NCBI GenBank assembly: GCA_960531495.1
Contig: OY482847.1
Location: 13,066,189-13,130,188 of the forward strand
Direction: 5' to 3'
Length of the DNA: 64,000 bases
Source: Zeus faber
Taxonomy: Eukaryota > Chordata > Actinopteri > Zeiformes > Zeidae
The position numbers and the translations under genes are program-made. The notes below the pieces were generated by a model. That model worked only from the letters and a program-made list of their open reading frames with translations, did not search any database and was not told where the DNA came from. Shown here one piece after another: positions 44,401-50,400 of the stretch; the first letter of the stretch is position 1; every line of letters begins with the position of its first letter.

Positions 44401-47400
44401 ATAATACTCTAGTTTCACACATCTCCTAAACCATAAATAGTCACATCTCATGACATAATGAGCGGTGGAACCTTGCAGGTGGTCAGCATGTCGGCCATGG
44501 CCTTGCGGCTCAGGTTCGCCGTGTGGATGATGTCCTCTTGGCGGCCCGAGTTCCCAGCAGCCACTGCTTTGGCCGTCGCCGTGGTGATGCCCTTGGTCAT
44601 GCGGATGAACTCCTCGGGGGTGGTGGATTTGCAGGGGACGACCTTGGACTGGAACAGCTGAGGGCGACATTAAATCACACTGTTTGTCGGAGAGATATGT
44701 GTTATCAGGAAAAACTCAAAGTCTTTTCCAAAATGGTGAAAATACATTCAAAAATAAAAAATGTAACTACAGGTGGCTGTGGACAATAAACTCCAATTAT
44801 ATTATCATAATAAAACAAGGTTTAATGCTGGTTTATCATGACATAATCTTCGCGTTTTAAGGAATGGTTTTGTTTGTAAATTGTTTGATATTACACTTTC
44901 ACCTGGGATCTGTGAGTTTATCTCGTGTTTATTTTTATCCGTTTGTAGCTTTTCATTTCTAAGCTTTTATCGCTCTTTGATTTTATATATGTAATTACTC
45001 TCGTGCTCCTGTGTTAAGCAGTCACGCATGAAATGAACTGTACAAATAAACTTGCCTTGTAGCTCATAAAACAAAACTCCCTTGTTTCCTATCTTATCAC
45101 TTCAGCAACAACCCTACAGCAAAATAGAATCAGACTGAGATCTATTATAAAACAAACTACGGCATGACACCGTTGCCATGGCCACGTTTGTTGACCTTCC
45201 TCGGTTTCTTTACATAAGCTCAGACTCTCAAGGAAACAGTGGAGAACGAGCCCCACGACGCTGATAAGAAGCCAAAGCCATCGCTGGCACACAACACACA
45301 GTGACATGGTTTGGCCTGGTGCGACGTGGCTTAACAGGGAACGGCAGGAATAGAGCTTCGTTAAAACCATGTGAAAGGATTAGATATGGAGTCGAACGAG
45401 CGCAATCACAAACATGAAGGCGTAAGTGCACTGCTGCAAAATCCTTTGAGTGCTTTTTAGCAGCTTCTCAGCGTGCTGCCTGGTGCCTGGAAACACCAAT
45501 CGCTGTCAGACAACCAGTCAATCAATCAATCTACAGTATCAGATCCCTTTAAAGTGGGCGATACAAAGCGGAGACATCCGACAGTATTTAATTTACCGCA
45601 AAATTCTGCACATTAGAATGTCAGTTGTGGACACTTAGGTTTGTTGTTTATTATTATTTATTTATTTTTTATCGTACATTTTTCAAGTTTATGGTCAAAT
45701 AATTATTGCTTCTTTCCGGATAATTTTCTATTCTTATTATTTATTTTGAAGTTTGTTTTCATTGGTTATTGTTGATTTGTCGCTTCATTTTCGACGTTTA
45801 TTCTATGACCTTATTGCGCACTGTTTTCCTCCGGGTATGAATAAAGTATCTATCTACATATCCACCCATCCACCCACCCACCCGTCCCTGAGCCTGTTCC
45901 CCCTTTCTCACCGTCAGCTCCTGCTTGATGCACTCTATGGTGGCCTCCAGGGCCCTGGTTCCCCTCGTGGCCTCGTCCTCCACGGCCTTCACCGTCTTCA
46001 GCAGGGACGTCACATTGGTCACCATTACCTGAAAAACACAAGGCAGGACACAACTTTTACACCAATATCATACTCAAGACTGGCCGGACTGGTGCTTGAA
46101 CAAGGTTTTCAATGTATAGATAGTGGTTCACTAGGTTTTCATTTTTAACCATGGCCATAAAAGAGGGCAGTCAATTATTGTTTCATTATTTTGTTAAATG
46201 TATTATTGCAAAGGGGCATGTACGTCTCAGAAGTCGAGTATGAAGCCCTCAAAAGGATATTACTTTAATAACGGTTGCCCGTACATAATCACATTATCTG
46301 ATTCTTAACTCTAGTCAGCGTATCATGATGCTTCTCAGTCTTTGTAATTGCATAAACCCTTTAGCAACTTGCAGTGCAATTCGATTTATTCCAATATTTG
46401 AAAAGTAGAAAACAGGGAAAGGGACACTATTACGGTTCCTTGAGGAACGCCTCCAGTTTACCTTGGCCGCTCCCTTCAGCTGGTACATGGAGGGGTCGTC
46501 CGCTGCTTTGCCGGACGCACATTTGGTGGCGCCGATGAGCTCGGCCAGGGCCTTGGCCACGTCTTTGACGGCGTTTATCAGAACCACCTGGAGGAAGGAA
46601 CCGCAGTTAGATCGGGCGTCATCAGCGGACGGCTCATGAAAAGTTATTAGAAGGCACAAAACAGAGGGAAGGGTCCTGAATGAAGTGTCTTGGATCCCAG
46701 ACATGTTACCTGTGTTCTGCTATTTGTGTGTCAGGGTCACAGTGGGCAGGCTATCTGTGTTTTGGGGTCATAGTGGGCAGGTTACCTGCGTTCCTTGGTC
46801 ATAGTTGGCGGGTTACCTGTGTTTTGGGGTCATAGTGGGCAGGCTACCTGCGTTCCTGGGTCATAGTGGGTGAGTTACCTATGTTTTGGGGTCATAGTGG
46901 GCAGGCTACCTGTGTTTCAGGGTTATAGTGGGCAGGCTACCTGTGTTTTGGGGTCATAGTGGGCAGGCTACCTGTGTTTCAGGGTCATAGTGGGCAGGCT
47001 ACCTGTGTTTCAGGGTCATAGTGGGCAGGCTACCTGTGTTTCAGGGTCATAGTGGGCAGGCTACCTGTGTTTCAGGGTCATAGTGGGCAGGCTACCTGTG
47101 TTTCAGGGTCATAGTGGGCAGGCTACCTGTGTTTCAGGGTCATAGTGGGCAGGCTACCTGTGTTTCAGGGTCATAGTGGGCAGGCTACCTGTGTTTCAGG
47201 GTCATAGTGGGCAGGCTACCTGTGTTTCAGGGTCATAGTGGGCAGGCTACCTGTGTTTTGGGGTCATAGTGGTCAAGCTACCTGTGTTTTGGAGTCATAG
47301 TGGGCAGGCTACCGGTGTTTTGGAGTCATAGTGGGCAGGCTACCGGTGTTTTGGAGTCATAGTGGGCAGGTTACCTGTGTTTTGGGGTCATAGTGGGCAG

Positions 47401-50400
47401 GCTACCTGTGTTTCAGGGTCATAGTGGGCAGGCTACCTGTGTTTCAGGGTCATAGTGGGCAGGCTACCTGTGTTTCAGGGTCATAGTGGGCAGGCTACCT
47501 GTGTTTTGGGGTCATAGTGGTCAAGCTACCTGTGTTTCGGAGTCATAGTGGGCAGGCTACCGGTGTTTCGGAGTCATAGTGGGGGAGTTACCTATGTTTT
47601 GGGGCCATAGTGGGCAGGCTACCTGTGTTCCTGGGTCATAGTGGGTGAGTTACCTATGTTTTGGGGTCATAGTGGGCAGGCTACCTGTGTTTGGGAGTCA
47701 TAGTGGGCAGGCTTCCTGCGTTCCTGGGTCATAGTGGGCAGGCTACCGGTGTTTCGGAGTCATAGTGGGCAGGCTACCTGCGTTTCGGAGTCATAGTGGG
47801 CAGGCTTCCTGCGTTCCTGGGTCATAGTGGGCGGGTTGCCTGTGTTTTGGGGTCATAGTGGGCAGGCTACTGGTGTTTCGGAGTCATAGTGAGCAGGCTA
47901 CCTGCGTTTCGTGTCATAGTGGGCAGGCTACCTGCGTTCCTGGGTCATAGTGGGCAGGTTACCTGTGTTTCGGGGTCATAGTGGGCAGGTTACCTGTGTT
48001 TCGGGGTCAGAGTTGGCAGGTTACCTGTGTTTCGGGGTCATAGTGAGCAGGTTACCTGTGTTTCGGGGTCATAGTGGGCAGGTTACCTGTGTTTTAGGGT
48101 CATAGTGAGCAGGTTACCTGTGTTTCGGGGTCAGAGTTGGCAGGTTACCTGTGTTTCGGGGTCATAGTGAGCAGGTTACCTGTGTTTCGGGGTCATAGTG
48201 GGCAGGTTACCTGTGTTTTAGGGTCATAGTGAGCAGGTTACCTGTGTTTCGGGGTCAAAGTGGGCAGGTTACCTGTGTTTCGGGGTCGTCTGAGCCAATG
48301 CTGGCGGCTCCCAGCTTGACCACGTCTGTGAGCTGGGTGATGGTTTTGGCAGACGAATGCGCCGCCTGCGCCAGCTTGTCCTGACCGGACGCGGCGCCAG
48401 ACACCAGCATCTTCGTGTCCTCCACAAGAGCTTTGGCCGTTTTCAAAATGTTCTCCCTGCAGCGTTGGGTGGAAAAGGGAGCGGAAAGAATGGCAGAATA
48501 GGCGTAGAGAGTGGAAGGGAAAGACCAAATAAGTTGAAATGAGAAGTCACATCAATATAAAACCTTTTGTCTACCTTACCACCCGGATGTTTTACCTTTG
48601 AAGGAGTGAGAAGCCGTTTTTAAATGGCCGTCGAACCAATGATCGTATCACTTTGAAGCCTCTTTTATCTCCAGGTTCAAAGCTTGTCCATGCTGAAGTG
48701 AGATTATTTGGGGATGGAGCCACTGATCTTTTACATGGATGCTAACAAGAGCAGAACCACCGGGAGCTGAGGAAAATGCCTGAACCTGAATTTGACACCA
48801 GTATATGGTCCTTTTAGTTTCATGAGCACTATCATTGTTAAAAGCGTTGTTTGTATTATTATTATTACGAGTATTTTTTTATACAAATATTTCTACCTCC
48901 CTGTTCACCAGCTAATATGGTATCCTGTCAGGATGAGAACGATTTACTTTAAGAATAGGTTTTACTTTTGGGAATGTATGTCACTCAGCAGTGTCACATG
49001 CAGCCCATACAGTCTGGGGGAATACTGTAGCGCTATTAAAAACACAGTAACGATGATAATAGTAAGTGGATTAACAGCAGACTCTCACCGGTGGTCTGCG
49101 AAGGACTCGTCGTCCTCTGCGTTGAGCGTTCCAGCCGAGGCGAACATGATGGTGGTGTCCAGGTCGGCGATGATCCCGGACACGGCGCTGGCCGCGGTGA
49201 TGCAGGCCTGGGTGCCCTTGTTCCCAGCCTGCAGGGCCGACAGCACCAGGGACACCTGCGAGAGACACGTTGATCTAAATTATAATACATTCAATACTAA
49301 TATGGGGATGGTAGCTCAGGCGGTAGAGCTGGTCGTCTAGTGATCCAAAGGTTGCTGGTTGGATCCCAGGCTCCTCTTGCTAGCATGCTGTAGTGTCCTT
49401 GAGCAAGACACTTAACCCCTAATTGCTCCTGATGGCTGCGTCCGTCAGTGTTTGAACAATTGTAAGTCGCTTTGGATAAAAGCGTCTGCTAAATGAAATG
49501 TAATGTAATGTAATGTAATGTAAAATGGAGATAAGAACAGAGTTTACATTCACTTTGGATTGAATTTTATAACTTTATCGAACTTCACGACTTGGTTAGA
49601 CTTAAATAAGCTGTTGAACAGTTGAAGGATTTATCGTAATTATGAATTTTAAATTGTAATTATCTGTTTAAATTTAGATTTTTTTTAATTAATTTCTCTG
49701 TATATTATACATTATATCTGATTGAATATTACATTAGACATGAAAATGAAAAATGATGAATGAAATAATGAAAACGAAAAGAAAGTGTTCACGCTTTCGT
49801 CAAGATGCTAAATTATTCATTCAAATCAAAGGGAGAGCGATCACTAATGGATTTAAAAATGGTTCCATGTGGCACTGATGAGAATGACAGACTCATGGAT
49901 GGTAGACGACAGAGTTAATTTTTTGCCAATTTCAATTAATTTAGTTTAACTTCAGACGCGGTCAGACGAATGAAAATGAATGCCTTTAATTTAAATGCAA
50001 CTACGTCATCTACGGTATCACACATACGATATAATTACAGACTTAATATATTTAAGATCTAGGCGGCTGGCGGTGTCGGCTGCGGCACCTTCTCTGTGAC
50101 GGTCCGTGCGCACTCGATCAGCTCCCTCTTGGTGAAGCTGTCCAAGGGCGAAACCTGCAGCGCCCCGGCCTTCTGCACCAGGAAGATGCAGCCGTGGCCC
50201 AGGTCCTGCACACGCGTCTTGATCTGGAAACCGATCTGGAAAACAAAAACACCACGATGGAAAGAATACAAATATACATAAGCAAGTGAACATTGATTTA
50301 TATGGTTTGAAACCAACCTAAATAGGTTTTGAGAGAATTACAAGTATAAAAGTATTATATACGTGGGTTTGAATCAGATAAAGCTGAATTTTCTTTTTCT

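Follow-up and report, generated by a model that had tools for sequence, protein, structure and literature searches.

A minisatellite built from an exon/intron junction of a talin gene in Zeus faber

A talin gene of the fish Zeus faber carries, inside one of its introns, a tandem array of about fifty 31-nucleotide units that repeat the exon/intron junction at which that intron begins. The array lies on contig OY482847.1 of NCBI GenBank assembly GCA_960531495.1, within a stretch of 64,000 nucleotides (positions 13,066,189 to 13,130,188 of the forward strand) that is called the window here and to which all coordinates refer. The repetition of the junction is real, and the array was copied from the exon. 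It is probably a near-neutral minisatellite in a gene whose splicing is dominated by the first 5' splice site (donor), with slight leakage into nonsense transcripts and possible skipping of the following exon.

The intron (46588-48272, minus strand) is 1685 nucleotides long and separates two exons that are designated exon A and exon B. Exon A (48273-48456, minus strand) comprises 184 nucleotides between an acceptor and a donor that can be read from the sequence, ends in phase 0, and matches talin-1 as a protein. Its 3' end reads GACCCCGAAACACAG/GTAACC, in which the slash marks the exon/intron boundary. Exon B (46462-46587, minus strand) is 126 nucleotides, or 42 codons, in length and is in frame at both ends.

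Tandem Repeats Finder places the array at 46725-48287, with a period of 31, 50.5 copies, 88% matches and a score of 2258, which is the top score among the 66 rows that the program reported for the window. With the end of exon A at 48273 and the first donor at 48272, the array, whose boundary is at 48287, overlaps the exon by exactly its last 15 coding bases (48273-48287, minus strand). These bases, GACCCCGAAACACAG, form an exact 15-nucleotide suffix match and are common to the units of the array. A preceding reading of the letters alone, hereafter the sequence-only reading, had the array beginning exactly at the real exon boundary and covering these bases, and the coordinates agree with it. 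The unit is GACCCCGAAACACAG/GTARCCTGCCCACTAT with variants. When the minus strand is walked in phase with the donor, 50 consecutive units are found, with donor positions running from 48272 to 46754. Unit 1 is the real junction, and unit 12 has one 1-nucleotide deletion. Beyond unit 50 is a further, degenerate copy of the junction (CAG/GTAACA, 46708-46709, minus strand), whose donor at 46709 is 122 nucleotides from the acceptor. The array takes up 91.9% of the intron, and about 137 nucleotides lie outside it. Thus the unit contains a 5' splice site, the array overlaps the exon, and coding bases lie inside the unit, as is characteristic of a junction minisatellite.

The host is a talin gene, judged by the match of the flanking exons to the talin rod domain. 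In searches of the PDB, exons A and B joined to the next exon (143 residues) matched residues 2017-2159 of talin-1 chain 6r9t (E = 9.2e-59), chain 3dyj (E = 1.4e-60) and fly talin chain 3fyq (E = 1.8e-51). For exon A, the match starts at residue 2017 of the 2547-residue talin-1 chain, so the number 19 that the sequence-only reading gave to this exon is presumably a count within the window. The C-terminal exons (208 residues when joined) matched residues 2334-2540 of the same 2547-residue talin-1 in 6r9t, and the last two exons of the gene match the I/LWEQ domain. Searches with joined exon stretches returned talin-1 and fly talin chains only, and no talin-2 chain. Background on the human paralogues favours talin-2 over talin-1 as its identity; the PDB matches do not separate the two.

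The array resembles the end of exon A and none of the other exon ends examined in this gene. The longest exon suffix present inside the intronic array is 15 nucleotides for exon A, versus 2-5 nucleotides for 15 other donor-side exon ends, and the longest match that spans the junction is 29 nucleotides for exon A, versus 3-8 nucleotides for the others. The other exon ends were placed by eye on the basis of reading frames: of 19 peptides, 17 were found, two of them with a shared donor, so that 16 donors remain, the true one among them. In 2000 shuffles of the end of exon A, the suffix match had a mean of 3.9 and a maximum of 11 nucleotides. A pattern scan of viral contigs for relatives of exon A, a long shot for a fish sequence, matched 17 stretches, none of which is a relative.

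The end of exon A encodes DPETQ, which is identical in talin-1 chains and aligns with QPDSQ of fly talin. Because the motif is identical in talin-1, these coding bases are old; the exon therefore predates the array, and the array was copied from the exon. Together with the 15-nucleotide suffix match, this upholds the earlier proposal that the array derives from the exon/intron junction. The exon has a CpG at positions -10 and -9, and across the 50 units this dinucleotide is CG in 15, CA in 13, TG in 13, AG in 6, TA in 2 and CC in 1. CA and TG each differ from CG by one deamination, the pattern that an ancestral exon form predicts. Units 1-11 are the most exon-like block, and all of them read GTAACC. 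An A at position +4 occurs again near the far end of the array, in unit 46 (GTAACT), units 48 and 49 (GTAACC) and the outlying copy (GTAACA), where it is interspersed with units that have a G (44, 45, 47 and 50). A 31-nucleotide segment composed of the last 15 coding bases of exon A and the first 16 bases of the intron was probably duplicated, after which unequal exchange or slippage would have expanded it and evened out some of the differences between units.

The arrangement of the units, which fall into 26 distinct types, also bears on the history of the array. Units 6-9 are an exact repeat of units 2-5, and within the first 11 units the identity is 0.977 at a lag of 4 units and 0.919 at a lag of 1. 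Units 35-43 (46956-47234, minus strand) are nine identical consecutive copies, of the same type as units 27-29. The exact recurrence of units and the identical run suggest recent expansion.

AG/GT is kept in 41 of the 50 units, the true junction included. The other nine units have CG/GT (four units), AG/GA (two), CA/GT, AG/GC or AG/AT (one each). With the outlying copy at 46709, the intron contains 42 AG/GT sites. The sequence-only reading had counted about 50 donors, which is too high, but its description of many near-identical donors holds. The 42 sites are spaced at 31 nucleotides, and most are nearly equal in predicted pairing to U1. Only one of the 42, the first (CAG/GTAACC, 48271-48272, minus strand), reads on into VVLINAVK and is the true 5' splice site. 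Pairing of the true donor with the 5' end of U1 is predicted at -8.0 kcal/mol, and the same value is predicted for the outlying copy and for 13 array donors with an identical 9-mer; the remaining array donors are at -7.7 (24 donors) and -6.4 kcal/mol (three). Within the talin gene, the true donor is middling, because 7 of the 15 other donors examined pair better and 8 pair worse. Given pairing this nearly equal, strength cannot single out the true donor, and position must therefore do so.

The donor core (-3 to +6) has a mean entropy of 0.319 bits, versus 0.340 bits at the other positions of the unit. It ranks 13th among the 31 circular 9-nucleotide blocks, and 13th again when only the 26 distinct unit types are used. 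The entropy test, which is weak in that the units are not independent, gives no sign that array donors were kept or purged by selection. Variation in the core is neither in excess nor lacking, as expected of a near-neutral array. Each unit also contains CACAG/G, which was considered as a potential acceptor for recursive splicing and set aside, there being no long pyrimidine tract in the units as read, unscored.

The window contains a second large minisatellite (5666-7064), with a 32-nucleotide unit, 43.7 copies and 80% matches. On the minus strand, the same strand as the talin gene, it has 35 AGGT sequences (19 of them TAG/GTGAAA), and on the plus strand it has none. No recognised exon lies at its edge, so an abundance of AG/GT is not special in itself; the shared exon bases are. 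This array was also considered as a second junction array and was not accepted as one; the minus-strand open frame upstream of it (7136-7270) has no Pfam match, and a non-conserved exon is possible there.

The consequence of using any donor other than the first is uniform. As the sequence-only reading had stated for later donors, all 41 of the 41 other AG/GT sites read V-T-C-P-L-stop straight after exon A. Because further exon junctions follow this stop, nonsense-mediated decay of such transcripts is expected. With exon B skipped, the protein would lose 42 residues without a frameshift.

The array is probably near-neutral, and exon A, together with its enhancers, would keep the first donor dominant from upstream. 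A few percent of transcripts would use nearby donors and meet V-T-C-P-L-stop, and nonsense-mediated decay should eliminate them. We expect mostly first-donor use with slight nonsense leakage; by analogy with a variable number tandem repeat (VNTR) in human ABCA7, described below, skipping of the in-frame 126-nucleotide exon B may also increase when the array is long.

Several points weigh against a junction-derived array with a dominant first donor. At position +4, where the junction has A, 32 of the 50 units have G (27 GTAGCC, two GTAGCT, two GAAGCC and one ATAGCC). Such a majority might be found if the array arose elsewhere and landed or grew against the exon, in which case the 15 shared bases would result from convergence or from the array having converted the exon. 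Yet the exon bases encode a motif that is identical in talin-1, position +4 is A throughout units 1-11 and once more towards the far end (units 46, 48 and 49 and the outlying copy), and, once the array is masked, the 31-nucleotide unit has no match longer than 11 nucleotides elsewhere in the 64-kb window. An origin elsewhere is thus very improbable, and interior expansion of a changed unit would explain the majority G. The count of units comes from a single assembly, in which the identical units 35-43 may be miscounted. As for splicing, equal donor strengths give no intrinsic reason for the first donor to dominate. Classical experiments with duplicated donors reportedly favour the donor nearest the acceptor when U1 binds all of the identical donors, and such a preference would select 46709, leave a 122-nucleotide intron and make mis-splicing common. 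Perhaps the outermost donor or its neighbours are often used through intron definition, which would retain the array and yield long nonsense transcripts. The last four sites would leave introns of 122-260 nucleotides, and their predicted U1 pairing (-8.0 kcal/mol for three and -7.7 for one) is close to that of the true donor (-8.0), which, with the reported preference for proximal duplicated donors, speaks for their use. However, most splicing has to be productive if the talin gene is required, and retained exon extensions of about 1.4-1.6 kb would disfavour exon definition, so frequent use of these sites is highly unlikely.

Array length could also act as a rheostat, as the sequence-only reading suggested by way of U1 sequestration or nonsense transcripts, if decoy donors compete for U1 or for spliceosome assembly such that length sets the share of productive talin mRNA while nonsense isoforms are destroyed. 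The 42 AG/GT sites, most of them near-equal in predicted U1 pairing, and the same early stop from all 41 extra sites are in keeping with this idea. So are data on human repeats: a 31-bp VNTR of CBS is listed, as exon 13-intron 13, with raised homocysteine and lowered activity in a review table (PMC1395315) whose cells are merged and whose footnote is outside the excerpt, and ABCA7 expression falls as its VNTR lengthens, according to excerpts of the study in question (PMC5954066). On the other side, the donor core is no better preserved than other positions of the array, abundant donors need no splicing role, as the 35 AGGT sequences of the 5666-7064 array demonstrate, and retention of an ABCA7 unit is about 2% and unchanged by VNTR length in the same excerpts (PMC5954066). 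That 2% was measured at steady state, and cycloheximide, which blocks translation, led to a substantial rise in the stop-bearing ABCA7 isoforms (PMC5954066), an observation that favours the rheostat and also implies that true leakage may be larger. On balance, a rheostat is unlikely. A fuller form of the idea, in which some 40 near-equal donors constitute a copy-number-tuned control of splicing and length sets both nonsense loss and exon B skipping, is slightly less likely again; if true, talin forms without 42 residues of the rod would be made.

Other features of the window were noted. The plus strand has an uninterrupted frame of 258 amino acids (59982-60755) with a Met start, a hydrophobic stretch that resembles a signal peptide and two C-type lectin matches (Pfam PF00059). 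On the strand opposite to the talin gene, and by eye between two talin exons, the frame has the appearance of a nested lectin gene without introns or of a retrocopy. Two similar translated stretches (49422-49574, minus strand, and 58773-58916, plus strand) are probably copies of one interspersed repeat. On the minus strand, the frame at 11695-12213 has a FIST_C domain match, and 16566-16700 has no Pfam match. The latter presumably resembles the start of an F-box protein, and the two together may be an FBXO22-like gene. A long GAGA/GTGA low-complexity array of about 800 nucleotides is located at 2462-3263.

The talin array is a further case of the exon/intron-junction minisatellites known from human CBS and ABCA7. 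The CBS VNTR, c.1444_1467+7(16_21), comprises 24 exon and 7 intron nucleotides by its Human Genome Variation Society name and has 16-21 units, which differ by single substitutions (PMC2630376, in excerpt). Like the talin array, it has a 31-bp unit that extends across an exon/intron boundary, with an exon end and a donor in each unit; the likeness of the units is one of anatomy. It occurs in another gene, has fewer units (16-21 versus 50) and takes more nucleotides from the exon (24 versus 15). Its length is polymorphic, whereas the talin array is known from one sequence. Alternative splicing at the donor of the CBS VNTR was reportedly described by Lievers in 2001. CBS also offers a simpler case, the 844ins68 allele, which duplicates the intron 7/exon 8 junction, and of whose copies the spliceosome strongly prefers one, the more distal (PMC2630376). 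This too is a tandem duplication of a splice junction, but it is a single 68-bp duplication and no minisatellite.

The 25-bp VNTR in intron 18 of ABCA7 begins with the GT of the exon 18 donor, has 23.7 units in the human reference and reaches 9711 bp in some alleles (PMC5954066). Retention of one unit leads to a premature stop, and the two frameshift isoforms are one that involves an exon 18 acceptor (14 +/- 6%) and one with one-unit retention (2 +/- 1%); skipping of the in-frame exon 19 grows with VNTR length (PMC5954066, the excerpts cited above). The talin array shares with it a start at the donor, a premature stop upon retention of units and a short in-frame exon downstream (44 codons for ABCA7 exon 19, 42 for talin exon B). 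In contrast, the ABCA7 array is described as intronic from the GT, whereas the talin unit includes 15 coding bases, and consequences for splicing were measured for ABCA7, whereas the talin array is known from its sequence alone. The exon share of the talin unit is therefore greater than that of ABCA7 and less than that of CBS.

Exon-seeded minisatellites had been called unusual in the sequence-only reading, which may be a fair description, although the kind was already known from the two human genes. No fish or talin junction array was among the matches listed in a search of open-licence PubMed Central, which lacks most subscription journals; passages of a chicken MUC2 paper and of a C. elegans paper proved unrelated. 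Care seems to be called for when genes are modelled or short reads mapped at introns of this kind. The talin array also provides a natural test of how the spliceosome chooses among 42 very similar donors at a regular 31-nucleotide spacing, which differ in position but hardly at all in predicted U1 pairing. Alongside CBS and ABCA7, it would be a third instance known to us, and one outside mammals, which suggests that exon/intron junctions seed minisatellites repeatedly.

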